From positions 409,193 to 473,192 of the forward strand of contig CANLOW010000003.1 in NCBI GenBank assembly GCA_947493035.1: a stretch of 64,000 nucleotides of DNA, given 5' to 3'. Shown in pieces: positions 27,164 through 42,601 of the stretch. Numbering within the stretch: the stretch's first letter is position 1; each line of letters starts with the position of its first letter. Source of the DNA: an uncultured Aquimarina sp. Its GTDB lineage: Bacteria > Bacteroidota > Bacteroidia > Flavobacteriales > Flavobacteriaceae. The notes under the pieces were generated by a model that had not been told where the DNA came from, did not search any database, and saw only the letters and a program-made list of their open reading frames with translations. The position numbers were made by a program, and so were the translations under genes.

Positions 27164-27985
27164 TTAATGTTCTAAGAAATTAATCAAGTGTTCTCTATAC
27201 TTGTAATAATCTGGGTGCTCTATGAGTTCCGCTCTATTTCTAGGACGCTCAAAATCGATCTCTAAAATATCTCCCACTTTAGCTCTCGGTCCAGATGTCA
27301 TCATAATCACACGATCTGCAAGCAAGATAGATTCATCAACATCATGCGTAATCATAACGGCAGTAATCTTTTCTTGATTCCATACCTCTACCAATACATC
27401 TTGTAATTCTCCTCTTGTTAGCGAATCTAGCATTCCAAAAGGTTCATCTAATAGTAATACTTTAGGTTTCAACGCAAATGCTCGTGCAATACCAACACGT
27501 TGTTGCATTCCTTGCGAAAGGTCTCTAGCACTTTTGTGCATAGAATCTTCTAAGCCTACTTTAGCTAAATAATATTTTACAATATCATCACGATCTTTCT
27601 TTGTTCCGTGAGCAAAAACTTGCTTCACGCCTAACATTACATTGTCGTAAGCAGAAAGCCAAGGCAATAAACTTGGTGATTGAAATATTACCGCTCTATC
27701 AGGCCCCGCACCTCTAACCGTTTGGTTATCGGCTATAATAGTACCTCTAGAAATTTCGTTTAATCCTGCAATCATAGTCAATAGCGTAGATTTACCACAA
27801 CCTGAATGACCGATAATTGATATAAATTCTTCTCTTTTTACTTTTAAATCTAAGTCATCTAAAACTACGTAATCTCCTTTAGGAGTAGGGTAAATTTTAG
27901 TAACCTTATTAAGGTCTAACATCACGTCATCACTGAACAATCCGTTATCCACACTTTTATTTAGGGTAGTGTCCATAGGTTTCAT
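27164..27985 (-). CDS. nrtD: Nitrate ABC transporter ATP-binding protein (NrtD-like)
   Basis: GHSGCGKSTLLTMIAGL; LSQGMQQRVGIARAFALKPKVLLLDEPFGMLD; at the end of the nrt operon. Confidence 0.85.
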   Translation of the reverse strand: MKPMDTTLNKSVDNGLFSDDVMLDLNKVTKIYPTPKGDYVVLDDLDLKVKREEFISIIGHSGCGKSTLLTMIAGLNEISRGTIIADNQTVRGAGPDRAVIFQSPSLLPWLSAYDNVMLGVKQVFAHGTKKDRDDIVKYYLAKVGLEDSMHKSARDLSQGMQQRVGIARAFALKPKVLLLDEPFGMLDSLTRGELQDVLVEVWNQEKITAVMITHDVDESILLADRVIMMTSGPRAKVGDILEIDFERPRNRAELIEHPDYYKYREHLINFLEH

Positions 27986-28054
27986 TTTATTTCAGCAGCA
28001 TTATTCATTACCTACTGAATGTTAATGGAAAATAAATTCATCCACTAAGTGGAA

Positions 28055-28915
28055 TTACACTTGTGTTCCTTGGAACAATTTAGATTTCAAAACAGGTTTT
28101 AATTCTGGTAAATGATATTCCTTCGTCAAGCCCTTTGCTCTTTCCGCTCCAATTTGGATTAGATAAGCTGTAATCGAATTTCTCAATTTCTTGAAATTGT
28201 CATCACTATTTAATTCTGTTTTTATTCTTGGGCGGTCAATATTCACTTCGAAAGTAGGACCCAAAGTCGCTTTTGGCCCTGGACGTAAAGGAATAATACG
28301 ATCGGCCATATAGATACCTTCATCTACATCATTTGTAATTAACAAAGCTGTTCTTTTATCTTTACTCCAAATACTCAAGATTTCATCTTGAAGATCTCCA
28401 CGCGTTAAAGCATCCAATGCACTCAATGGCTCGTCCATTAAAATTACATCTGGACTCATTGAAAGAGCTCTTGTAACAGATACACGTTGTCTCATTCCAC
28501 CAGAAAGTGCTTTAGGAAGTTTGTTAATTGCATGAGATAATTTCACCATACCAACATAATCCTCTACCCTCTTTCTAAGTTTATCTTTTGACCAATCTTT
28601 AAAACGTTCTTTAACTGCCATACCAACATTATTTCTAACATTTAACCATGGTAATAATGAATAGTTCTGAAAAATTAGTCCTCTTTCATGACTAGGACCT
28701 GTAACTGGTTCTCCTTTATATAATACTTCTCCTTCATCAGGAAATTCTAAACCTGCAAGCATTTTGATAAGTGTTGTTTTTCCACTTCCTGAAAATCCTA
28801 CAATAGCTACAAATTCTCCTTCTTCTATTTTTAAATTTATATTCTTAAGTATTTCGACACGGTCTTTACCCGTCCCATAAGACTTTGATACGTTTTTTAA
28901 TTCAATATGTGCCAT
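28055..28915 (-). CDS. nrtC: Nitrate ABC transporter ATP-binding protein (NrtC-like, without fused binding domain)
   Basis: GFSGSGKTTLIKMLAGLEFPDEGEV; LSGGMRQRVSVTRALSMSPDVILMDEPLSALD. Confidence 0.8.
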   Translation of the reverse strand: MAHIELKNVSKSYGTGKDRVEILKNINLKIEEGEFVAIVGFSGSGKTTLIKMLAGLEFPDEGEVLYKGEPVTGPSHERGLIFQNYSLLPWLNVRNNVGMAVKERFKDWSKDKLRKRVEDYVGMVKLSHAINKLPKALSGGMRQRVSVTRALSMSPDVILMDEPLSALDALTRGDLQDEILSIWSKDKRTALLITNDVDEGIYMADRIIPLRPGPKATLGPTFEVNIDRPRIKTELNSDDNFKKLRNSITAYLIQIGAERAKGLTKEYHLPELKPVLKSKLFQGTQV

Positions 28916-29025
28916 AATTCTTTAGTTTATGGTTGTGAGTTGTGAGTTATAAGCTGACAGAAAAAGTGATATTATAACTAATATTTAATACTGACAACTG
29001 ACAACATGAAACCGACAACTAATTA

Positions 29026-30111
29026 TTACTGCTCTGTGAATGTTACTAATTTCTGTACAGAAAACATGATACGATCTAACATGAAACCGATAATACCAAT
29101 CACAAACATGGCAGCGATTATCTTAGCATTAGAATCATTTGCTCCATTCTGGAATTCTTCCCATACAAACGTTCCTAATCCTGGACTTTGCGATAATAAT
29201 TCAATCGCAATCAATACCATCCATGCTACAGACACAGTGATTCTTAAACCTGTAAATATTAATGGGAAAGCTGATGGCAATACAATTTTAAATACTTTTT
29301 GACCAACACTTAAATTCAATACTTTAGCCACATTAATAAAGTCATTATCTACAGACGAAACTCCTAAAGTTGTATTTACTAAAGTTGCCCACATAGCACA
29401 TAATCCTACTGCAATAAATGATATGATAAAAGACACATCTCCATCATATGTTAATGTTAATGTCTTTACAATCATGTATACTAAAAGAAACCAAACAACT
29501 GGCGATACTGGTTTAAATATTTGAATTAACCAGTTTACCGAAGACCTAAGTGTTTCACTTAGTCCTAAAAGCATACCAATAGGTACTGCTAAAAATAATG
29601 CTAAAATAAACCCACAGAATACTGTCCAAAGACTTGTTTTAATTTGATCTACAAATGACGGACGACCTGTGTATGTAATTTCTTTTAACCCTTGTGCCTT
29701 ACGCTTTTCATTTGTTTTAGCTACACGTTCTTTAAATTCCTTTTTCTTAACACTAATAGCTTTATGATCGGCAAGTAAGTTTTTAAATGCACTCCATACC
29801 GCAGCTGGTGCTGGTAATGAGTTAACGGTACTTTCACCTGATTCTATTCTTGCTAATTCGGCTGTTACTCCTGCCTCACCACCTGAAGCTTTAGCCGTTT
29901 CTATTTTGAAATCTTTTTCTACGTTATATAATTTCTTTGCTCCTACATTCCAAAGAATCATGAACAAAAAGATAGAGATTATAGGAAAAAATACTTTTTG
30001 AAATAAGGCTGTTAAATTTTTCTTGACATCCTCTCCTGCAGCTAAACGTACAGCAGGCTCAAAAAAACCTAGACCAATAAATCTTAAAACATTAATAATT
30101 TTATCCTTCAT
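29026..30111 (-). CDS. nrtB: Nitrate ABC transporter permease
   Basis: IKTSLWTVFCGFILALFLAVPIGMLLGLS; KIVLPSAFPLIFTGLRITVSVAWMVLIAIELL; LGTFVWEEFQNG. Confidence 0.88.
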   Translation of the reverse strand: MKDKIINVLRFIGLGFFEPAVRLAAGEDVKKNLTALFQKVFFPIISIFLFMILWNVGAKKLYNVEKDFKIETAKASGGEAGVTAELARIESGESTVNSLPAPAAVWSAFKNLLADHKAISVKKKEFKERVAKTNEKRKAQGLKEITYTGRPSFVDQIKTSLWTVFCGFILALFLAVPIGMLLGLSETLRSSVNWLIQIFKPVSPVVWFLLVYMIVKTLTLTYDGDVSFIISFIAVGLCAMWATLVNTTLGVSSVDNDFINVAKVLNLSVGQKVFKIVLPSAFPLIFTGLRITVSVAWMVLIAIELLSQSPGLGTFVWEEFQNGANDSNAKIIAAMFVIGIIGFMLDRIMFSVQKLVTFTEQ

Positions 30112-30304
30112 AACTATAATATTTTTTTAGGGATTGTATAGTGTTGATTTTAACAACTATTAAATAAATGAGTAATAAAAAAGTAAGTAGTAATTTGTAA
30201 TCTTTAAATAAGTTAAGTCGTGAGAATTTTGAAGAAGTAAAGAAATGGGGAGCATCTGACCTCTCCCCAATTTCCCGTGTTAAAAAAATTCAACACTCCC
30301 TAAA

Positions 30305-31681
30305 TTACTTGTCTTTGTTTCCAATCTTGAAACTATTGATATATCCGATTGGATCTTTACCATCATATTTTGTTCCATCAATAAAGTCAGCAGTAGCAGG
30401 CTTGTATCCATCTGTTGAAGGAATATCGCTAGCTGGTATCTTACCTTCTTTCACTAGCAATTCAGCAGCTTTCTTCCAAATACCTGGCTTATAGATATCT
30501 TTTGCTTTTGAAGCATACCAATCAGCAGGCTTTGCATCAGGAATTTGTCCCCAACGACGCATTTGAGTTAAGAACCATACAGCATCTGAGTAGAATGGGT
30601 ATGTTGCATTGTAGCGATAGAATACGTTAAAGTCTGGCATAGCACGCTTGTCACCTTTTTCGAACTCAAAAGTACCTGTCATTGAATTTGCTAATACATT
30701 TACTGGAGCACCTACATACTCAGGACGAGATAAAATCTCTACAGCTTCTTTTCTGTTTCCTGGAGCATCTAACCATTGTCCAGCACGGATTAATGCTTTA
30801 GTAATAGCGATTGTTGTATTTGGGTACTTCTTAGTAAACTCATCAGTTAATACAAATACTTTTTCAGGATTATTTTTCCAAATATCATAGTTAGTAGTTA
30901 CTGGAACACCGATCCCCTTAAATACAGCTTGTTGATTCCAAGGCTCTCCCACACAATATCCGTAAATAGTACCCGCTTCTAAAGTAGCTGGCATCTGTGG
31001 CGGAGGAGTTACAGATAATAATACATCTGCATCTACTTGACCTTGAATATTCTGCTTAGTATACATCCCAGGGTGAATTCCTGAAGCAGCTAACCAATAA
31101 CGAATCTCGTAATTATGTGTAGATACAGGAAATACCATACCCATTTTGAATGCTTTACCATTCTTTTTATAATCATCAATCACCGGCTTTAAAGATTCCG
31201 AAGAAATTGGATGAACTGGCTTCCCATCAGCACCTTTCTTAACATTTGGCTTCATTTTCGCCCAAACATCATTAGAAACAGTAATACCATTACCATTTAA
31301 ATCCATTGAATATGGAGTTACTAATTTAGCCTGACGACCGAAACCTGCCTGAGCAGCAATTGGCTGACCTGCCAACATATGCGAACCATCTAATTGACCA
31401 TCAATTACACGATCTAATATATTTTTCCAGTTAGACTGTGCTTCTACAGAAACAAATAAGCCCTCATCTTCAAAAAACCCTTTTTCTTTAGCAATCGCTA
31501 AAGGAGCCATATCTGTTAATTTAATGAAACCAAATTTTAATTGTGGTTTCTCTATTTCTAATATTGGAGTTGCCGGAGCAGCAGCTGCCTCAACAGGAAC
31601 TTCCTTTTTCTTACCTCCTCCACAAGAAACTAAGATCGCTGCAGTAGCAGCTGTAGCTAGTTGTAAAAACTTATTTTTCAT
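30305..31681 (-). CDS. nrtA: Nitrate ABC transporter substrate-binding lipoprotein
   Basis: Lipobox [38 protein letters not shown]...[29 protein letters not shown]. Confidence 0.9.
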
Positions 31682-31731: not shown

Positions 31732-31747
31732 TACGTATCAATACTTA
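31732..31747 (-). promoter_or_regulatory. Putative NarL-type site upstream of nrtA (minus strand TAAGTATTGATACGTA)
   Basis: Matches 16-mer TAAGTATTNATACKTA; followed on the minus strand by ATACTTATATTTG (31715-31727), a half-site overlapping -7 TATATTTG. Confidence 0.65.
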
Positions 31748-31940
31748 GTTTTAGAATAAATTTCTAAGTATTTCACTAAGCACTCATCTAAAACCTTAAA
31801 AAACAAGTACTTAATTCTGTTTTTTTTATTTAAAAAATAAAATAGAATGAATAACCTATATGTAATGAGACACAACTACGTAGTCGAAAGAAGTGATTTA
31901 GTAGACCTATAACATTTTCGGTAATTATTTTATCTTTTTT

Positions 31941-31956
31941 TAAGTATTAATACTTA
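31941..31956 (+). promoter_or_regulatory. Putative NarL-type palindrome upstream of P-box protein
   Basis: TAAGTATTAATACTTA perfect 16-bp palindrome; downstream half-site plus -7 ATACTTACATTTG. Confidence 0.65.
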
Positions 31957-32043
31957 GTTAATTTGAAATAATACTTACATTTGTAAGACGAAATACATAG
32001 AATAATAGACAAAAAGAGGTTTTTGTCACAACACGTAAGACTT

Positions 32044-32871
32044 ATGAGAACATTTATTTCAACTCTGGTTATTTTTTTAATATCTATTAACCTACACGCA
32101 AAGAATTTTACATTTGGCAATATTAGCTACGGGAAGGCTACTAATATATCAGGAAAGCAAAGAATGTTATCACAACGTATTACTAAATTATACCTACTTA
32201 AGTTAGCAGGGTCACATGGTCCTGAATTAACAAAGGAATTTAACTCTAGCATTCAGCTATTCGAAAGAAACTTAGCCATCCTAGAATCTAATAGCAAAGA
32301 AACTTCTATTAAAGTCAAAACAACATTAAAAAAAGAGAAGGTTCAATGGGAAGTTTTCAAAAAAACACTTAGAGAGCATTCGCTACATAAAGTAGCAGCA
32401 GTTATGGACAACGCATCTCAACTACTTACAAAATGTCATCAAGTAGTATTAGCTATAGAAGAGGAATCTAAGTATACACATGAATACGAAAACCACAATC
32501 CTCAAGAACAATTAAAGGTTGAAACTGTTAACATTGCAGGAAAACAAAGAATGCTATCTCAAAAACTATGTCTTTACTATACCGCTTGCCGTCTTTATAG
32601 AAAAGAAAATTTAGATTCAAAACCTATATGCCACAATGTAGAAGACATATATAAAGAAATGAATGAATCGTTAAACTGGTTGCTAATAAACGATTTAAAC
32701 ACTTTCGCTATTGAAGAAAATATAGGTAAAATACTTGGGTTGTTTCAACAAATTGAAGAAGACAAAAAGGCTTTCTTAAACAACAAACTCCCACTAGTTA
32801 AAATAATGGGACTAGCAAACAGCATTACCAGTTTATACAATGTTATTACTGGTCAATACACTGCCTTATAA
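32044..32871 (+). CDS. Periplasmic protein with two PilJ/NIT-like (type IV pili MCP N-terminal) P-box domains
   Basis: Signal peptide MRTFISTLVIFLISINLHAK; KATNISGKQRMLSQRITKLYLLKLAG and VNIAGKQRMLSQKLCLYYTACRLY. Confidence 0.8.
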   Translation: MRTFISTLVIFLISINLHAKNFTFGNISYGKATNISGKQRMLSQRITKLYLLKLAGSHGPELTKEFNSSIQLFERNLAILESNSKETSIKVKTTLKKEKVQWEVFKKTLREHSLHKVAAVMDNASQLLTKCHQVVLAIEEESKYTHEYENHNPQEQLKVETVNIAGKQRMLSQKLCLYYTACRLYRKENLDSKPICHNVEDIYKEMNESLNWLLINDLNTFAIEENIGKILGLFQQIEEDKKAFLNNKLPLVKIMGLANSITSLYNVITGQYTAL

Positions 32872-32984
32872 ACTAACTTAGCTAATTTAAAACTACCTTC
32901 CGATAAAACCATACAAGGAATGTAGCTGAAAATTATTTTTTAAATGCTAGGTAAGACACAGAGAATTTACCTCACAATATGGGA

Positions 32985-33024
32985 TTAAAAAAGGTTCATT
33001 TGATATCAAATGAACCTTTTTTAA
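32985..33024. terminator. 40-bp perfect palindrome, bidirectional terminator
   Basis: TTAAAAAAGGTTCATTTGAT/ATCAAATGAACCTTTTTTAA, between convergent P-box gene and narL-like gene. Confidence 0.85.
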
Positions 33025-33044
33025 TTTCAATTTTATGATATAAA

Positions 33045-33746
33045 TTATATTAAACCATACTTACGAGCCTTATTACTTAGGTCTAAAATATTTTTTACAT
33101 TTAATTTCTTCATCAAATTAAAACGGTGCACCTCGGTTGTTCTTTTACTAATACCTAAAGCTTCTGCAATCTCTTTATTACTGTAACCTGCTACAGCTTT
33201 TTCTAATATTTGACGCTCTCTTTTGGTCAAATTGAAATTCACATTTACAGGAGGCTCATCAGTAAAAACTACTTCTTCTTCTTTCGTTGGGGTATCTAAA
33301 ATATTATTAGAAGGGGTTGATCCTCCCATAAGGCTATTCACAAGTATAGAAGAAACATCTCCACTATAATACTTACCTCCTTCTTTAACTGTTTGTATTG
33401 CTTTTAAAAATTCCTCTTTACCAGCATCCTTTAACAAATATCCATGCGCGCCTGCTTGCACGGACTGCAGTATGTACTCTTCCGAATCATGCATCGACAA
33501 CATAATAAACTTTGTAGCCAAAAACTCTTTTGACAACTTTGATACCGCCTCTATTCCTGTCATGTTAGGCATTCTAATATCACATATCAATAAATCAGGG
33601 TTCAATTCAGCAGTAAACTGTATCGCCTCTTCCCCATCAGAAGCTTCACCAATAACTTCCAAGCCCACTTGATCTGCTAATAATGACTTTATACCGTCTC
33701 TTACAAGAGAATGATCGTCAACAAGAAGTATTTTAAATTTATCCAT
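33045..33746 (-). CDS. NarL/FixJ-family response regulator
   Basis: ILLVDDHSLVRDGIKSLLADQ; DLLICDIRMPNMTG; LTKRERQILEKAVAGYSNKEIAEALGISKRTTEVHRFNLMKKLNVKN. Confidence 0.95.
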   Translation of the reverse strand: MDKFKILLVDDHSLVRDGIKSLLADQVGLEVIGEASDGEEAIQFTAELNPDLLICDIRMPNMTGIEAVSKLSKEFLATKFIMLSMHDSEEYILQSVQAGAHGYLLKDAGKEEFLKAIQTVKEGGKYYSGDVSSILVNSLMGGSTPSNNILDTPTKEEEVVFTDEPPVNVNFNLTKRERQILEKAVAGYSNKEIAEALGISKRTTEVHRFNLMKKLNVKNILDLSNKARKYGLI

Positions 33747-33861
33747 ATATCTTTACACTTACATTACAAAAATAACTAAGTACATTAATTTAACAAAAAA
33801 CTTTTACTTAAGTCTTCATAACTAATGATTTATTTATTTTTTTAAAAAACTAAGTAATACT

Positions 33862-33877
33862 TAAGTATTAATACTTA
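33862..33877 (+). promoter_or_regulatory. Putative NarL-type palindrome upstream of porin
   Basis: TAAGTATTAATACTTA; -7 TATATTTG (33876-33883) overlaps its last two bases. Confidence 0.7.
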
Positions 33878-33917
33878 TATTTGTCATGTAATCATTAGAT
33901 AACTACAACTATTTAAT

Positions 33918-35222
33918 ATGAAAAAATCACATTTACTTACTGGAGCCTTAGCTGTATTAGGATTATACAGTGTAGGTGCACAAGAATTATCGATTGACGC
34001 TGAAATCAGACCTCGTGCTGAAATCTTAAACGGGTTTGGAGCTCCTATTGCTTCAAGTGCAGAGCCAGGTGCTTTTATCTCTCAAAGATCTGCTATTAAA
34101 TTCAAATACAAAACTGAAAAAATCACAACCTATTTATCTATTCAAGATGTAAGTGTATGGGGAGACAGACAACAAATTAGCCCTGTCGGTGGTGAATCTA
34201 CACGTATCCAAGAAGCTTGGGCACAATTAGACTTAGGAAAAGGGTTTTCTGCCAAAATTGGTCGCCAACCTTTATCTTACGATGATCAACGAATCTTAGG
34301 TGGTTTAGGATGGGCACAACAGGCAAGAACTCATGATGTTGGTGTATTGAAATTTGTTGATAACGGACTAAAAATAGACGCAGGTTTCGGATGGAATCAA
34401 AATAGAGCCTCAAATGTAGGTAATCAATTTACTCCAGTAGGTGGAGGATCTCCTGTATTTAGATATAAAGGCTTAGGTTTTTTACACATAAATAATAAAT
34501 TTTCTGACTCATTCACTGGAAGCTTTTTATTTTTAGGTAATAGCTTTCAAGACACATCGGGACCTACAGGTGGAGACTCATTCCCAGGGACTACAAGAAG
34601 ATACACTTCTGGAACACATTTAAAATATAAAAAAGGTGCATTTGGCGCAAGTGCTAATGCCTACTACCAATTTGGTACTATTGGTAATGACAATACAGAT
34701 GTTTCTGGTTTCTTAGGAGGAATAGATTTAACATATAAACCAGGTAAAACTTTATTTGGCCTAGGGTACGAATATATTAGTGGAAACGACCCTTCTACAG
34801 GAGACGAAAACGAAGCCTTTTTCCCTTTATTTGGAACAAACCACAAGTTTAATGGATTTATGGATTATTTTTATGTAGGTAATCACGCAAATCAAAATGG
34901 ATTACAGGATATAAATGCTAAAGTAGTATTTAAAACTGGAGCAAAATCTACCCTATTGGTTAAAGCTCACCAATTCTTAGCTGCAGAAGACAACGATTCT
35001 CTTGCTGACACTTTCGGTACTGAAATTGATTTAGTATTTAAAACACCTATCGTAAAAGGAGCAACATTATTGGTTGGTTACTCTCAAGCATTCTTAGATG
35101 ATGACTTTATCAATGACAGAGGTATTGCGAATGCAGATTTAGCAAGCGATTTCCAAGCTTGGGCATGGACTATGTTAGTGATCAAACCAAACTTATTCAA
35201 GTGGAAAAAAGAAGCTAAATAG
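33918..35222 (+). CDS. Outer-membrane porin (alginate-export-like barrel), candidate nitrate/nitrite porin
   Basis: Signal peptide; SIDAEIRPRAEILNGFG...; IGRQPLSYDDQRILGGLGWAQQARTHDVGVL; shares the nitrate promoter motif. Confidence 0.75.
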   Translation: MKKSHLLTGALAVLGLYSVGAQELSIDAEIRPRAEILNGFGAPIASSAEPGAFISQRSAIKFKYKTEKITTYLSIQDVSVWGDRQQISPVGGESTRIQEAWAQLDLGKGFSAKIGRQPLSYDDQRILGGLGWAQQARTHDVGVLKFVDNGLKIDAGFGWNQNRASNVGNQFTPVGGGSPVFRYKGLGFLHINNKFSDSFTGSFLFLGNSFQDTSGPTGGDSFPGTTRRYTSGTHLKYKKGAFGASANAYYQFGTIGNDNTDVSGFLGGIDLTYKPGKTLFGLGYEYISGNDPSTGDENEAFFPLFGTNHKFNGFMDYFYVGNHANQNGLQDINAKVVFKTGAKSTLLVKAHQFLAAEDNDSLADTFGTEIDLVFKTPIVKGATLLVGYSQAFLDDDFINDRGIANADLASDFQAWAWTMLVIKPNLFKWKKEAK

Positions 35223-35265
35223 TAAATATTATTAATTAGTTCGATCATAAATAATTGTTAGAGTT

Positions 35266-35299
35266 AAAAGCCTCAGTCTTCGGATTGAGGCTTTTTTTT
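35266..35299 (+). terminator. UUCG-tetraloop terminator
   Basis: AAAAGCCTCAGTC-TTCG-GATTGAGGCTTTTTTTT. Confidence 0.88.
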
Positions 35300-35306
35300 A
35301 TTAAAA

Positions 35307-35322
35307 TAAGTATTAATACGTA
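35307..35322 (+). promoter_or_regulatory. Putative NarL-type site upstream of narK
   Basis: TAAGTATTAATACGTA followed by TGTATACGTA; possible -7 TATATTCG at 35341-35348. Confidence 0.6.
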
Positions 35323-35392
35323 TGTATACGTAGATTTTTATATATTCGCACCCTCGTAATACGTACAAATACTTATTTAATACTCCCTAATT

Positions 35393-36745
35393 ATGAATTC
35401 ACTAAGTACTAGTAAGGCTACTAAAATTAACCTTACCGATTTTAAAAGCGTCCAAATGCGAACTTTTCATTTGAGCTGGATTGCTTTCTTTTTATGTTTT
35501 TTCGGATGGTTTGCACATGCACCATTAATGAAATCTACTATTGCTCCTGATTTAGGACTAACTAAAGAACAAACTACAATAGCTTTTATAGCTTCTGTTG
35601 GTGTAACTATTTTTGCTCGTCTAATTATCGGATCTCTTTGTGATAAAATTGGCCCTAGAAAAAGTTACGTTTACTTATTAATTTTTGGAGCCATAGCTGT
35701 TGCTGGTTCTTCTTTTGCAACAACTTGGGAAACTTATTTAATTTCTAGATTAGCTATAGGTGTTATCGGTGCTTCTTTCGTGATCACTCAATACCACACT
35801 TCTGTAATGTTTGCACCAAATGTTATTGGTATCGCAAATGCAACAACAGCTGGTTGGGGTAACCTGGGTGGAGGTGTTACTAACGCCGTTATGCCAATGA
35901 TTGCTTCTGGTGTATTAGCATTTGGTTTAGCCGAAGCTAATTCTCACTGGAGAATAGCAATGTACGTCCCTGCAATCATTATGTTAGTCGTTGCATTCTT
36001 ATACTGGAAATACACTACCGATTCACCAAAAGGAAATTATACTGACTTACCAGAAGAAAGACCACAAGTTAAAAAAGGAGAAAAAGGCCTATTCTTAACT
36101 GCTGCATCTGACAAAAGAGTATGGATATTATTCTTTATGTATGCTGGATGTTTCGGTATGGAGTTATTCGTAACAGGTAAAGCTTCTACTTATTATCAAG
36201 AAAAATTTAGTTTAAGTCAAGAGGCTGCGGGTCTTGTAGTACTTTTCTTCGGAGCTATGAACCTATTTGCGAGGTCTACCGGCGGATGGATTGCTGATAA
36301 ATTTGGTAAAAACTCAGGACTAAATGGACGTGTTAAAATTTTGGTTTACGTAGTTGTAGCTGAGGGTATTGCCTTATTATTATTCTCTCAAATGAATGTA
36401 CTTGGCTTAGCCATTGCATCTATGGTATTTTTCTCTCTATTTGTACAAATGGCAGAAGGAGCTACATACTCTGTAGTACCATTTATCAACCGAAAAGCTT
36501 TAGGTGCCGTATCTGGTATTGTAGGTGCTGGTGGTAATGTAGGTGCTGTATTATACGCACAATACTTGCTAAGAAGTGGATCAAGTCTACAAGAGGCTTT
36601 CTTCGCCTTTGGTTTCATCGTAGCGTCAGTAGGTTTCTTAGGGTTACTTGTAAAATTCACACCTGAAGAAGAACAAGCTGCTAAAGATGAACAACAGAAA
36701 TTAGAAGACTTACAAAAACAAATCGATGCAACTGAAGCCGCTTAG
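35393..36745 (+). CDS. narK: MFS nitrate/nitrite transporter
   Basis: Multi-TM MFS; FLCFFGWFAHAPLMKSTIAPDLGLTKEQ; GWGNLGGGVTNAVMPMI nitrate-signature-like; GAGGNVGAVLYAQ. Confidence 0.92.
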   Translation: MNSLSTSKATKINLTDFKSVQMRTFHLSWIAFFLCFFGWFAHAPLMKSTIAPDLGLTKEQTTIAFIASVGVTIFARLIIGSLCDKIGPRKSYVYLLIFGAIAVAGSSFATTWETYLISRLAIGVIGASFVITQYHTSVMFAPNVIGIANATTAGWGNLGGGVTNAVMPMIASGVLAFGLAEANSHWRIAMYVPAIIMLVVAFLYWKYTTDSPKGNYTDLPEERPQVKKGEKGLFLTAASDKRVWILFFMYAGCFGMELFVTGKASTYYQEKFSLSQEAAGLVVLFFGAMNLFARSTGGWIADKFGKNSGLNGRVKILVYVVVAEGIALLLFSQMNVLGLAIASMVFFSLFVQMAEGATYSVVPFINRKALGAVSGIVGAGGNVGAVLYAQYLLRSGSSLQEAFFAFGFIVASVGFLGLLVKFTPEEEQAAKDEQQKLEDLQKQIDATEAA

Positions 36746-36809
36746 ATATTTTTGATTAGATATTACCAATAATAAATATTTTTACAGTTATCTGTTAACT
36801 GTAAAAACC

Positions 36810-36841
36810 AAAACCCGGAGAATAATCGTTCTCAGGGTTTT
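36810..36841 (+). terminator. Terminator hairpin after narK
   Basis: AAAACCCGGAGAATAATCGTTCTCAGGGTTTT; preceded by a second hairpin TTTACAGTTA/TAACTGTAAA at 36781-36805. Confidence 0.8.
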
Positions 36842-36969
36842 GTCTTTAATAACTAATTCATAAGTGAATTCAATAATTCATAAAATAATTAAATAAAAGA
36901 TAACTCAAACGCTTAAAAAATAGCAACTACTTAATAATTATTCTAAATACGTATAACTAGTTACACACC

Positions 36970-36985
36970 TAAGTATTTATACGTA
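36970..36985 (+). promoter_or_regulatory. Putative NarL-type site upstream of nirB
   Basis: TAAGTATTTATACGTA; -7 TATTTTTG (36984-36991) at the same offset as in the porin promoter. Confidence 0.7.
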
Positions 36986-37011: not shown

Positions 37012-39534
37012 ATGAAGCATATAATCGTTATTGGTAATGGAATGGTGGGATACAAATTTTGCGAAAAATTAGTAGCCCTTCCTAACTATTCAGATTTTAA
37101 ACTAACTGTTTTTGGTGAAGAACCACGTAGAGCTTACGACCGTGTTCACTTAAGTGAATTTTATGACGGTAAAACAGCTGAGGATTTGAGTATGTCCACT
37201 GCCTCTTGGTACGAAGAAAATAATATTGATCTTCATGTATCTGAAATGATCACTGAAGTTGATCGCGAAAATAAAACCGTAGCAAATCATAGAGGTGATA
37301 AATACAATTACGACACATTAGTATTCGCATCTGGCTCTTCGGCTTTTGTTCCTCCAATACAAGGGATTGAAAAAGAAGGTGTATTCGTGTATCGTACTAT
37401 AGAGGATTTAGAAGCTACTGAAACTTATGCTAAAAAGTTAAAAGCTGAAGGTAAAACTGAGGCTGCTGTATTAGGTGGAGGTCTTTTAGGACTTGAAGCT
37501 GCTAATGCTGTTAAAAACTTAGGATTAAATGCTCATGTAGTAGAGTTTGCTCCTAGATTGATGCCAAGACAATTGGATCAAGGAGGTAGTGATATGCTAC
37601 AATCTAAAATTGAAGATCTTGGTTTAAAAGTTCACCTATCTAAACAAACTCAATTTTTACAAGGTGATAAAGCTATCGAAGGATTACAATATGTTGATGA
37701 CACTGAACTAAAAGTTGATATGCTAGTGGTATCTGCTGGTATTCGTCCTCGTGATGAAGTTGCTAAGGAATGTGGATTAGAAATTGGGACACGTGGTGGT
37801 ATTGTAGTTAACAATAAAATGGAAACTAGTGATCCCAACATTTATGCTATTGGAGAGTGTGCTTTGTTAAACAGTATGATTTACGGTCTTGTAGCTCCTG
37901 GTTACGATATGGCTGAAGTTGTCGTGCAACAAATCAATGGAAATGCTGAAGCAGAAATGCCTTCTGCTATAGATATGTCTACAGTACTTAAACTGATAGG
38001 TACAGATGTAGCAAGTTTTGGAGACGCCTTAAATTTTGCTAAAGAAGAGGTTGACGAAATTACTTTCGAAAACAAACGTACTGGAATTTATAAAAAAATT
38101 AATGTAACTAAAGATGGCTCTAAGCTTTTAGGAGGAATCTTAGTTGGAGACTCATCTGATTACAACTCTTTATATCAAATTTACATTAACGGAATGAAAC
38201 TTCCTGAAAACCCTGAAGACCTTATTTTAGGATCTCGTGGAGGTGAAGATGGAGGTTTATTAGGTGATGTTATGGATCTTCCTGACGATGCCCAAATCTG
38301 TTCTTGTGAAAGTGTTACCAAAGGTCAAATTTGTGGCGCTATCGAAAGTGGTGAAGCTAATGATCTTGCCGATGTTGTTTCTTGCACAAAAGCTGGTACT
38401 GGTTGTGGTGGTTGTAAACCAATGGTTAAAGACCTTGTTGATGCAACATTGAAATCTTTAGGACGTGAAGTTAAAGATTCTGTTTGCGAGCATTTTGATC
38501 AAAATCGTCAAGAATTGTATAGCCTTATTCAGGTTAAAGGTTACACAGCTTTTGATGAAGTATTAGATAATCATGGAAATGGTGGACATGGTTGTGAATT
38601 ATGTAAGCCTTTAGTTGCTTCGTTAATGGCAACAATACATGCTGATACAGCCAATAAAGAAGATACTATCCAAGATTCTAATGATAGATTTCTTGCTAAC
38701 ATTCAACGTAATGGAACTTATTCAGTAGTACCTCGTATTCCGGGAGGAGAAATTACCCCGGATAAGTTAATTGCACTTGGTGAAATTGCTAAAAAGTACG
38801 ACTTATATACTAAAGTTACTGGTGGTGTTCGTATAGATATGTTCGGTGCTACATTAAATCAATTACCACTAATTTGGAAAGAATTAGTAGAACACGGTTT
38901 TGAAAGTGGTCATGCTTATGGTAAATCATTACGTACTGTAAAGACTTGTGTAGGTTCTACATGGTGTCGCTACGGAATGGACGAAAGTGTTAGTTTTGGT
39001 ATTGAACTAGAAAACAGATATAGAGGAATGCGTTCACCTCATAAGATTAAGGGAGGAGTTTCTGGATGTATCCGCGAATGTGCTGAGGCACGTGGTAAAG
39101 ATTTCGGATTAATTGCTGTTGATGGTGGTTGGAACCTTTATGTTGGTGGTAATGGTGGTGCTACTCCAAGACATGCTGAATTATTAGCAGAACAAATCGA
39201 TAACGAAACTGTAATAAAATATTTAGACCGTTATTTAATGTTCTATATGCGTACTGCAAAACCTTTACAACGTACCGCTGCTTGGCAAGATCGTTTAGAA
39301 GGAGGTATAGAATACTTGAAACAAGTAATTATTGAAGATTCTTTAGGAATCGCCGATGATTTAGATAAAGAAATGCAAACTCTTGTTAATAAGTTTGAGT
39401 GTGAGTGGACTCAAGCAATTAATGACCCTGAGATGATGAAGCGTTTCAATCATTTTGTAAACTCAGAAGACGATGATGATAATTTAGTTTTCGTTCCTCT
39501 AAGGGATCAAAAAATGCCAGAACCTTGGAAGTAA
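37012..39534 (+). CDS. nirB: Assimilatory nitrite reductase (NAD(P)H) large subunit
   Basis: FAD/NAD domains, BFD-like CSCESVTKGQICGAI...CGGCKP, siroheme/4Fe-4S CVGSTWCRYG...GGVSGCIRECAEARGKDFGLI. Confidence 0.97.
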   Translation: MKHIIVIGNGMVGYKFCEKLVALPNYSDFKLTVFGEEPRRAYDRVHLSEFYDGKTAEDLSMSTASWYEENNIDLHVSEMITEVDRENKTVANHRGDKYNYDTLVFASGSSAFVPPIQGIEKEGVFVYRTIEDLEATETYAKKLKAEGKTEAAVLGGGLLGLEAANAVKNLGLNAHVVEFAPRLMPRQLDQGGSDMLQSKIEDLGLKVHLSKQTQFLQGDKAIEGLQYVDDTELKVDMLVVSAGIRPRDEVAKECGLEIGTRGGIVVNNKMETSDPNIYAIGECALLNSMIYGLVAPGYDMAEVVVQQINGNAEAEMPSAIDMSTVLKLIGTDVASFGDALNFAKEEVDEITFENKRTGIYKKINVTKDGSKLLGGILVGDSSDYNSLYQIYINGMKLPENPEDLILGSRGGEDGGLLGDVMDLPDDAQICSCESVTKGQICGAIESGEANDLADVVSCTKAGTGCGGCKPMVKDLVDATLKSLGREVKDSVCEHFDQNRQELYSLIQVKGYTAFDEVLDNHGNGGHGCELCKPLVASLMATIHADTANKEDTIQDSNDRFLANIQRNGTYSVVPRIPGGEITPDKLIALGEIAKKYDLYTKVTGGVRIDMFGATLNQLPLIWKELVEHGFESGHAYGKSLRTVKTCVGSTWCRYGMDESVSFGIELENRYRGMRSPHKIKGGVSGCIRECAEARGKDFGLIAVDGGWNLYVGGNGGATPRHAELLAEQIDNETVIKYLDRYLMFYMRTAKPLQRTAAWQDRLEGGIEYLKQVIIEDSLGIADDLDKEMQTLVNKFECEWTQAINDPEMMKRFNHFVNSEDDDDNLVFVPLRDQKMPEPWK

Positions 39535-39574
39535 ACCGATAGCTATCGGAACGAGGTATAGTTAGTAGTACCTT

Positions 39575-39631
39575 GTAGTGTTGCACTTTACTGATTTCAG
39601 CGTATATAAAACAGCAACAGTGTAGCACTAC
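39575..39631 (+). other. Candidate structured nirB-nirD intercistronic RNA
   Basis: GTAGTGTTGCAC (39575-39586) pairs with GTGTAGCACTAC (39620-39631) over 12 bp with two G-U wobbles. Confidence 0.4.
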
Positions 39632-39672
39632 TTTTCCAAGATTATTGTTCATTATATTAGTACTCAAAAAAC

Positions 39673-40050
39673 ATGGAAAACATTTTAGATAATTATAAGA
39701 CAGTAGATACCAATGACGTAAAAGTATGGTTTGAAGCTGCAAAAGCATCAAATTTCCCTAAAGATGGAGGGGCTTGTATCAAATACAAAAACAAACAAAT
39801 TGCTGTTTTTAACTTTGCTCGTGAAGGTAAATGGTATGCTTGTCAAAACCTTTGCCCACACAAAATGGAAATGGTATTAAGTAGAGGTATGATCGGAGAC
39901 GATAAAGGGATTCCTAAAGTTGCTTGTCCTTTACATAAAAAAACATTCTCTTTAGAAAATGGAGAAAACTTAAATGGTGATATGGATGCCATTGCTACAT
40001 ATCCTGTAAAGATAGAAAACGACGTTGTTTATGTAGGTTTTACTGAGTAA
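39673..40050 (+). CDS. nirD: Nitrite reductase small subunit (Rieske-type)
   Basis: KYKNKQIAVFNFAREGKWYACQNLCPHKMEMVLSRGMIGDDKGIPKVACPLHKKTFSLENG. Confidence 0.95.
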   Translation: MENILDNYKTVDTNDVKVWFEAAKASNFPKDGGACIKYKNKQIAVFNFAREGKWYACQNLCPHKMEMVLSRGMIGDDKGIPKVACPLHKKTFSLENGENLNGDMDAIATYPVKIENDVVYVGFTE

Positions 40051-40219: not shown

Positions 40220-40804
40220 ATGGATATGGAATTACTTAAAAAGACTTTTGTAGCTATAGATGCAGCAAATAGTAAAGACCCTAATAAAGAGATTATAGAT
40301 AATAAAGAATTACCAAAAGAACTTATCTATGGTCAACGCATGAGTGAAATGCTAGATATGTTCAAACCAAATGCAACCGATATTTTAAAAATTGCTGTAA
40401 GAGCTCAACATATTTGCCGATGGGAAAGCCCTCGCTCTAATTACCCAATGAATCGAAAAGGCTACCTTTTATGGCGTTCCGAATTAAAGAAGTTTCACGC
40501 AGTAAAAACAGGAGAAATCATGACCGAACTCGGTTATGACCATAAGTCGATAGAAGCTGTTAGTTTTTTACTTCAAAAAAAACAGTTAAAGCGTAATGAG
40601 GAAACTCAGTGCCTGGAAGATGTTGTATGCCTTGTTTTTTTAAAACATTACTATGAAGCTTTCCGTATTAAACATACGGATGAAAAAGTAATCGATATTG
40701 TACAAAAAACTTGGAAAAAAATGTCTAAAAAAGGTCATGCCGCAGCATTACAAATACAATATACAGAAAAAGGTCTTTCTTTAATTCAACAAGCACTCGC
40801 TTAA
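40220..40804 (+). CDS. DUF4202-like protein
   Basis: AIDAANSKDPN...LIYGQRMSEMLDMFKPNATDILKIAVRAQHICRWESPRSNYPMNRKGYLLWRSELKKFHA; directly upstream of the P-box kinase. Confidence 0.8.
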   Translation: MDMELLKKTFVAIDAANSKDPNKEIIDNKELPKELIYGQRMSEMLDMFKPNATDILKIAVRAQHICRWESPRSNYPMNRKGYLLWRSELKKFHAVKTGEIMTELGYDHKSIEAVSFLLQKKQLKRNEETQCLEDVVCLVFLKHYYEAFRIKHTDEKVIDIVQKTWKKMSKKGHAAALQIQYTEKGLSLIQQALA

Positions 40805-40807
40805 ACC

Positions 40808-42601
40808 ATGACAGAAACTTTAGATAAAAAGACATTTAACTCCATAAGAAAGATCTATATGATCGCTTTGGGATTAATTGCTTTCTTAGTACTTCTTAGC
40901 CAAATATTCATACAAGGCGCATTGTCTAGAAATGATTATGATGCAACTATCATCAATATTGCAGGTAGGCAACGTATGCTAAGTCAAAAAATTAGCAAAA
41001 CTATTTTACTTTGGAATTCTCCTTTAGAAATCACACGTGACAACAACAAAGAACTGGAAGAAGATACTAATCAATGGAAACAAGCTCACTTTTTACTAAA
41101 AAATAACCTTAAAAGTTTAGATCATTCACCAGGAAAAAGACAACTACAAGAGAAGTTCGAAAAAGTCGATATTCAAATCAATCGACTAGTAGATCTTTCT
41201 CAAAAGATTCAAGATAAGATTGGTTCAGACGAAGTCGAAACGAAGAAAAACATTAAAGAATTCTTACTTGCTGAACCTGAGTTTCTAAAAAACATGAACG
41301 ATTATGTTAATATTTATGAAACTTATGCTGAGGATAAAGTAGGCCAAATAAAAACTCTAGAGCTAACTACATTTGCTTTAGTCCTTTTTATATTAATAGC
41401 TGAAATATTCCTTCTCTTCAAACCTGCAGCTAGAAAAATGCAAAATACCTTGAAGCAGCTTATCAATAGTAATGAAAAGGCAGTTACTATGGCTAATCGA
41501 GCTAATTTAGCGGTAAAACAAAAGAACGAAACCTTAGAAGAATTACAACTACTTCAAAAAGCAATCAACCAAACGCTATTATTTGCACGTATTGATAAAA
41601 AAGGGGGTATTATCTCTGCAGGAAAACGCATGAATGATATGATTGCCAAACAGCCCAATCAAAATCATGTGATTTATGAAAACCTAGGACTATCAGAAAG
41701 TAACTTAAGAGAGCTTCAAGGGCTTATTGATTCAAAAAAAGGAAATATACTGAATCATGAATATGCTGTTTCCATAAAGAACAGTGATATAAAGTGGTTA
41801 GATATATCTGTTTTCCCGATAATCAAAAATGAAGGTGTTACTGAATACCTTATGGTATGTTTAGATATCTCGAAACGAAGAAAGGCTCAAGAAAATATTG
41901 AAGCTCTTAGAGAAGAAAAATTGAAAAACGAAACTGCTTTACAAAAATCTAAAGCAAGCCTTATCGTCGAAGCACAAGAAGAAGAAAGAAAGCGTATTGC
42001 TAAAGATATCCATGATAGTATTGGTCAAATGTTAACTGCTTTAAAATTCAATATAGAATCTTTAAACCTCAACAATACAGAATCGTTACCTGATAAAATA
42101 AATATTTTAAAAGAACAGACTCGAAATATAATCTTAGGAGTGCGTATGGCTACTTTTAACCTTACTCCTCCCGAATTATTAGATTATGGAATTGTAACTG
42201 CTATCAATAAAATGGTAACTCAACTAAATAAATTCAGCAAAGCTGAAATTATATTTTCTAATGATGCTTCGAAAGAGCTACGCTTTGACACATTAGTTGA
42301 AACAAATCTATATAGAGTTACTCAAGAAAGTATAAATAACGCCATAAAGTATTCTAAAGCTCCATATATCATAGTATCTATGAAGACTAGTGAAGAAATG
42401 TTGAGTATTACTGTTACTGACAATGGTAAGGGCTTTGACAAAAATAAAATAGCCAAAAAACCTAAAGGTGGTTCTGAAGGCGGTATGGGACTATTCTTTA
42501 TGAAAGAACGTATGGAATATATTAACGGCCGTATTTTTATTAATTCGCAACCTGGTAATGGTACCCGAGTAGTTATCAATATGCCTTTAATTAATATTTA
42601 A
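40808..42601 (+). CDS. NarX-like sensor histidine kinase (P-box sensor, PAS, HisKA_3, HATPase)
   Basis: ATIINIAGRQRMLSQKISKTILLW; RKRIAKDIHDSIGQMLTALKFNIESL; GMGLFFMKERMEYINGRIFINSQPGNGTRV. Confidence 0.92.
   Translation: MTETLDKKTFNSIRKIYMIALGLIAFLVLLSQIFIQGALSRNDYDATIINIAGRQRMLSQKISKTILLWNSPLEITRDNNKELEEDTNQWKQAHFLLKNNLKSLDHSPGKRQLQEKFEKVDIQINRLVDLSQKIQDKIGSDEVETKKNIKEFLLAEPEFLKNMNDYVNIYETYAEDKVGQIKTLELTTFALVLFILIAEIFLLFKPAARKMQNTLKQLINSNEKAVTMANRANLAVKQKNETLEELQLLQKAINQTLLFARIDKKGGIISAGKRMNDMIAKQPNQNHVIYENLGLSESNLRELQGLIDSKKGNILNHEYAVSIKNSDIKWLDISVFPIIKNEGVTEYLMVCLDISKRRKAQENIEALREEKLKNETALQKSKASLIVEAQEEERKRIAKDIHDSIGQMLTALKFNIESLNLNNTESLPDKINILKEQTRNIILGVRMATFNLTPPELLDYGIVTAINKMVTQLNKFSKAEIIFSNDASKELRFDTLVETNLYRVTQESINNAIKYSKAPYIIVSMKTSEEMLSITVTDNGKGFDKNKIAKKPKGGSEGGMGLFFMKERMEYINGRIFINSQPGNGTRVVINMPLINI

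Follow-up and report, generated by a model that had tools for sequence, protein, structure and literature searches.

PilJ-type domains are usually read as the sensor input of kinases and chemoreceptors. Nitrate recognition by such a domain has been described for McpN, in which a single nitrate on the dimer axis is gripped by R61 from both chains, and the nitrate N-box was published as [IVL][ND]xAGxQRML[ST]Q (PMC6381276). In the tandem domain of Pseudomonas aeruginosa PilJ, the N-boxes are not conserved and nitrate is not bound (PMC6381276). Nitrate binding by the NIT domain of NasR has been described as similar to that of NarX and McpN (PMC8199190, PMC7496416).

Here we describe a gene from an uncultured Aquimarina sp. 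that encodes two PilJ units without an output domain. It is located in a nitrate-assimilation cluster on a 64,000-nucleotide stretch of DNA, which is referred to as the window. We found no description of stand-alone tandem PilJ proteins in nitrate operons in the open-licence literature.

The 275-aa tandem PilJ protein

The gene and the features of its predicted product are as follows.

32044..32871, + strand: gene for the stand-alone tandem PilJ protein, 275 aa, ATG at 32044, stop at 32871
32044..32100, + strand: signal peptide MRTFISTLVIFLISINLHA, residues 1-19, Sec type without a lipobox, from the sequence, with a putative cleavage site
32128..32481, + strand: PilJ unit 1, four helices, residues 29-146 (AlphaFold model and Pfam)
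32140..32175, + strand: N-box/P-box 1, TNISGKQRMLSQ, residues 33-44, containing R40 (sequence)
32500..32865, + strand: PilJ unit 2, four helices, residues 153-274 (AlphaFold model)
32527..32562, + strand: N-box/P-box 2, VNIAGKQRMLSQ, residues 162-173, containing R169 (sequence)
32981..33028, + strand: strong stem-loop terminator separating the gene from the convergent regulator gene

By every test run, the product is a PilJ-domain protein. PF13675 (PilJ) matched it in two stretches and scored 59.4 bits (cut-off 26.6; E 4.4e-16), and both units open with a GKQRMLSQ box. PilJ was the only Pfam family above the cut-off, and kinase and MCP signalling domains were absent. The protein lacks a transmembrane segment, as no hydrophobic stretch was found beyond the signal peptide. 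Tandem GKQRMLSQ boxes behind a signal peptide, with no transmembrane or output domain, had been noted in the preliminary description, and the open reading frame and the Pfam match (E 4.4e-16, far above chance) confirm them. An NMT1/SBP domain was detected neither by Pfam nor by fold search, NrtA being encoded by the adjoining gene. The NIT profile gave zero matches in the 275-aa protein at E values up to 1, and NCBIfam holds no name for it. Because of the terminator at 32981-33028, the gene is regarded as a single-gene unit.

The AlphaFold model, built with a 49-sequence alignment, had a mean pLDDT of 90.5 and a pTM of 0.83. Eight long helices, at residues 29-54, 60-83, 89-109 and 114-146 in unit 1 and 153-187, 193-214, 221-245 and 251-274 in unit 2, form two four-helix bundles. 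For each half, the nitrate-bound McpN domain was the best solved match (TM 0.75-0.78 by target length, rmsd 2.0-2.5, Foldseek E of about 0.02), and the sequence profile matched McpN (E 4e-10) and PilJ (E 8e-8). Structure prediction, named earlier as a way of checking for a paired four-helix bundle, thus returned two McpN-like bundles at a pLDDT of 90.5. The whole chain overlaid poorly on the extended PilJ tandem (TM 0.27) and gave a loose fold match to the NasR NIT domain (TM 0.48, rmsd 7-8).

Box 2 fits the published N-box exactly (PMC6381276), and box 1 departs from it at two positions (T for [IVL] and S for A) and keeps G..RM. R40 and R169 of one chain are the equivalents of R61 in two McpN chains. 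The N-box helices of the two units probably pair in one chain like the subunits of the NarX, NarQ and McpN dimers, and each chain would then hold one nitrate between R40 and R169 as an intramolecular site.

The nitrate cluster and its shared palindrome

The gene is surrounded by the following features of the window.

27164..30111, - strand: NrtB permease and two NrtC/D-type ATPases
30305..31681, - strand: NrtA-type nitrate-binding lipoprotein (NMT1_2, Pfam)
31732..31747, + strand: second palindrome copy, on the nrtA side
31941..31956, + strand: perfect regulon palindrome TAAGTATTAATACTTA, no mismatch to TAMGTAN4TACKTA, 103 bp upstream of the ATG
31976..31983, + strand: TACATTTG, which we take to fit the Bacteroidota -7 promoter element TAnnTTTG
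33045..33746, - strand: NarL-type response regulator, convergent with the tandem PilJ gene
33918..35222, + strand: alginate-export-type porin, with a palindrome 41 bp upstream
35393..36745, + strand: NarK-type nitrate/nitrite transporter, with three palindromes upstream
37012..40050, + strand: NirB and NirD nitrite reductase, with a palindrome upstream
40220-40804: DUF4202 gene, between nirD and the kinase gene
40808..42601, + strand: sensor histidine kinase with one periplasmic PilJ domain (IINIAGRQRMLSQ)

The nrtABCD-type uptake genes (27164-31681) are divergent from the tandem PilJ gene, and the order past the NarL-type regulator is porin, narK, nirB, nirD, DUF4202 gene and single-PilJ histidine kinase. 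The place of the DUF4202 gene between nirD and the kinase was conserved in the relatives read.

The consensus TAMGTAN4TACKTA occurred at 19 sites in the 3.34 Mb genome, compared with 3 for a reversed control. Seven of the 19 lie in the nitrate cluster, upstream of nrtA, the tandem PilJ gene, the porin gene, narK and nirB. Four of the sites outside it lie 44 bp before a nasA-like nitrate reductase gene, 71 bp before the glutamine synthetase gene (glnA), 51 bp upstream of a globin gene and near nitrilase genes. It marks a nitrogen regulon of the source genome (window 31732-36985; L229, L230, L231, L232).

In the nitrate loci of 13 relatives, the palindrome was found between the same genes, and 20 control loci gave 3 sites in 372 kb. 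The exact palindrome lay 160 bp or less upstream of 9 of 15 nitrate-locus tandem PilJ genes versus none of 35 off-locus paralogues. In G019, a genome of another genus, the tandem PilJ gene lies outside the nrt locus, yet it carries the palindrome at -54, and nrtA of this genome has one too. From this distribution, including G019, it follows that the tandem PilJ gene belongs to the nitrogen/nitrate regulon and is a regulated component of nitrate assimilation. The nitrate-type promoter proposed in the preliminary description is supported, as the perfect palindrome is common to the other nitrate promoters, though it also precedes glnA.

Occurrence in the genus, the phylum and Betaproteobacteria

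Relatives of the tandem PilJ protein were present in 51 of 55 genomes of its own genus and in only 3 of 61 genera of the family. In 32 of the 36 nrtA-bearing genomes of the genus, the gene adjoins nrtA on the same contig; in a 33rd (G101) it starts its own contig, and its adjacency to nrtA would lie across the contig break. The nrtA-bearing genomes without the gene at nrtA were G100, G084 and G063. Among the 19 genomes of the genus without nrtA, none had the gene in the nitrate slot, apart from one fragmentary genome, and it was absent from nir loci without nrt in G083, G098, G062 and G088. On the uvrB tree, 3.7 of 4 independent pairs showed the gene and nrtA changing in concert and none showed opposite changes, although so few pairs do not reach significance (p 0.125). 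We preferred tree-based pairs because the sampled genomes are kin; the raw Fisher test of co-occurrence (3e-11) ignores this kinship and was not relied on. The NrtA proteins of relatives are about 80% identical while the tandem PilJ protein falls to 35-39%.

PilJ domains were found in 34 of 297 Bacteroidota genomes, nearly always within longer, kinase-sized proteins. Of eight other NrtA-bearing genera in the family, seven lacked the tandem PilJ protein, so transport does not require it and the protein is an accessory.

The source genome encodes six more stand-alone tandem PilJ proteins, of which one has degenerate boxes and none lies close to nitrate genes; some are adjacent pairs away from nitrate genes (L009 8400-10064 and L010 8406-10940). 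The AU test rejected a single clade uniting all of the genus's nitrate-slot copies, among which the dispersed paralogues nest. These paralogues would most simply be copies that left the slot, and given this nesting we do not claim several independent recruitments to it within the genus. In G066, a divergent tandem PilJ gene (L072 8157-10460) lies outside the nitrate cluster, beside a porin gene whose product is 44% identical to the nitrate-cluster porin.

A scan with the single 275-aa protein as the query returned no relatives, but one using an alignment headed by a Cupriavidus relative succeeded. In 85,462 species genomes, it detected 337 relatives, of which the best 80 were kept; because a Cupriavidus protein led the alignment, they were mostly from Betaproteobacteria. 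Thirty-six of these best 80 lie in nirB clusters, a biased sample that gives no unbiased frequency. The usual order was nirB, tandem PilJ gene, nirD and nasA. The gene started less than 300 bp from the end of nirB in 31 of the 36 loci, nasA was downstream in 32, and the transporters were NarK or Nrt. All 36 leaders contain a twin-arginine pair, versus 19 of 42 elsewhere, and on this basis these proteins are probably exported by Tat. In the family tree, the nitrate-locus groups of the two phyla are far apart, with non-nitrate members between them. The preliminary description had named a lack of co-occurrence with nrt and nir genes in other species among its refuting conditions; such co-occurrence was clearly present, with nrtA in the genus and in nirB clusters of Betaproteobacteria.

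Some betaproteobacterial nirB clusters encode fusions of receiver-like, ANTAR and tandem PilJ parts (L203:3809-5155 on the - strand, L188, L191, L194, L199, L156, L202 and L169). They are apparent NasR analogues in which PilJ units replace NIT. Their presence in the same clusters suggests that the tandem PilJ unit is a portable nitrate-responsive module. A fold search with an ANTAR fusion was dominated by matches to the receiver and ANTAR part and was uninformative for PilJ packing. Small cytosolic proteins (227-262 aa) in which a single PilJ unit precedes a helix pair resembling an MCP hairpin are encoded beside tandem PilJ genes in Cupriavidus and Ralstonia (L121 8193-8981; L134-L136) and, in one Bacteroidota genome, next to the genes for a NarK-like transporter and a globin (L123 887-1570).

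Both GxxRM arginines were retained in all 52 nitrate-locus copies (16 of 16 in Bacteroidota and 36 of 36 in Betaproteobacteria) versus 66 of 77 other copies, and most of the N-box was likewise retained across the 52. This retention bears on a second reading, in which the protein is a nitrogen-regulated periplasmic PilJ-fold protein for another ligand, such as nitrite, an NO-derived species or another anion, and possibly protects from nitrite or reactive nitrogen during assimilation. Such a role would suit the betaproteobacterial gene position between two nitrite reductase genes and the palindrome upstream of the globin gene, and nitrate specificity is not universal among PilJ-family receptors. 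However, the nitrate-contacting residues are kept in every nitrate-locus copy, and the gene is associated with nrt and nasA besides nir; we consider this reading unlikely.

The lack of an output domain could also mean that the protein is the sensor region of a kinase or chemoreceptor which lost its output and survived by chance. Signs of decay do occur: the G063 copy, which lies in a nir locus lacking nrt, is interrupted between its two units by a single in-frame stop, and in two relatives a second copy directly 3' of an intact one has lost both nitrate boxes (L057 4475-5323 and L058 10582-11403). Against this, the protein is full length and has kept both boxes in dozens of species from two phyla, and the gene has its own promoter and terminator in a conserved slot. 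Long conservation refutes decay for the family, and it is highly improbable for this gene. As tandem versions are found inside nitrate-assimilation clusters of two phyla, the protein is probably an overlooked periplasmic nitrate-binding helper and not a stray sensor fragment.

Function and comparison with known systems

The PilJ kinase of the cluster raises a further possibility, that the protein is a soluble nitrate co-sensor which modulates this kinase or another membrane sensor, as in TorT-TorS or NreA-NreB, and tunes expression. The cluster encodes a kinase with the same kind of domain together with a NarL-type regulator, PilJ units are sensory modules elsewhere, and cytosolic regulators of Betaproteobacteria carry the same tandem unit in fusion with ANTAR. 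However, the protein and the PilJ kinase can occur apart. In 5 of 55 genomes of the genus (G105, G076, G100, G088 and G062), the cluster kinase has no periplasmic PilJ domain and is about 445 aa long with two hydrophobic helices (loci L060, L066, L125, L129 and L130); G105 and G076 nevertheless keep the soluble protein. Conversely, PilJ kinases occur without it in the loci of G083 and G098, as they do in almost every sampled genome of the phylum that has PilJ, and the 36 betaproteobacterial nitrate loci yielded no PilJ kinase. The palindrome that drives the effector genes also drives this gene. In tree pairs, it went with the kinase PilJ domain in 3.2 of 6 and with nrtA in 3.8 of 6; it follows nrtABCD at least as closely as it follows the kinase. 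The evidence leans against a dedicated partnership with the cluster kinase, and a co-sensor role is doubtful. Of the roles given in the preliminary description (nitrate-binding co-sensor, buffer or uptake chaperone), the nitrate link is well supported by the conserved neighbourhood, the shared regulon motif and the two retained arginines; the co-sensor part is weakened by G105, G076 and Betaproteobacteria.

We favour the reading of the protein as an inducible periplasmic nitrate-binding accessory of nitrate uptake and assimilation, to which we assign a probability of roughly one half (0.48). Its production would accompany that of the uptake and reduction proteins, and it would be exported in soluble form. 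As the output domain is absent, it most likely handles nitrate, and it may capture and pass on, or buffer, periplasmic nitrate between the outer-membrane porin and NrtA or NarK. The departure of box 1 from the strict N-box, the P. aeruginosa PilJ tandem that binds no nitrate (PMC6381276) and the many paralogues away from nitrate genes count against the accessory reading.

We also propose, more tentatively and with the odds leaning against it, that the tandem PilJ unit is a self-contained nitrate receptor, a fused pseudo-dimer used both as a soluble periplasmic form and as an ANTAR-fused cytosolic regulator. The soluble form would then be a class of nitrate carrier of the periplasm distinct from all substrate-binding proteins, and a regular component, without a name so far, of the nitrate-assimilation operons of at least two phyla. 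Its presence in nitrate operons of Bacteroidota and Betaproteobacteria implies a step in periplasmic nitrate handling, and we know of no model of nitrate assimilation that includes such a step. The protein is a concrete soluble object for asking whether fused units bind one nitrate per chain, and annotators would have a meaningful name to use in place of 'type IV pili chemotaxis transducer N-terminal domain'.

The McpN domain (P. aeruginosa PA2788, PDB 6GCV) is likewise a PilJ four-helix bundle with an N-box and an arginine that hydrogen-bonds nitrate. However, McpN is a one-unit membrane chemoreceptor that dimerises around nitrate, whereas the protein described here has two units in a soluble chain without an MCP output. 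NarX/NarQ kinases, of the class described in Bacteroidota (PMC8199190), share the P-box G-x-x-R-M in a periplasmic PilJ-type domain and the nitrate context; the tandem protein lacks their transmembrane, DHp and ATPase domains and has two units where they have one. PilJ of P. aeruginosa (PA0411; PDB 7ZJR, 8WDF) also has two consecutive PilJ domains but is a membrane chemoreceptor of the Chp system. The NIT domain of Klebsiella oxytoca NasR (PDB 4AKK) also has eight helices per chain, but NasR is cytosolic and ANTAR-fused, and the tandem protein has no Pfam NIT match. The betaproteobacterial tandem PilJ-ANTAR regulators carry the same two-unit module, 29% identical across unit 1 and the beginning of unit 2, but are cytosolic, with receiver-like and ANTAR domains in front and GQLRMLSQ as box 1. 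Thus, the tandem PilJ protein is neither a NarX/NarQ kinase, a chemoreceptor, an NrtA-type binding protein nor a NIT protein.
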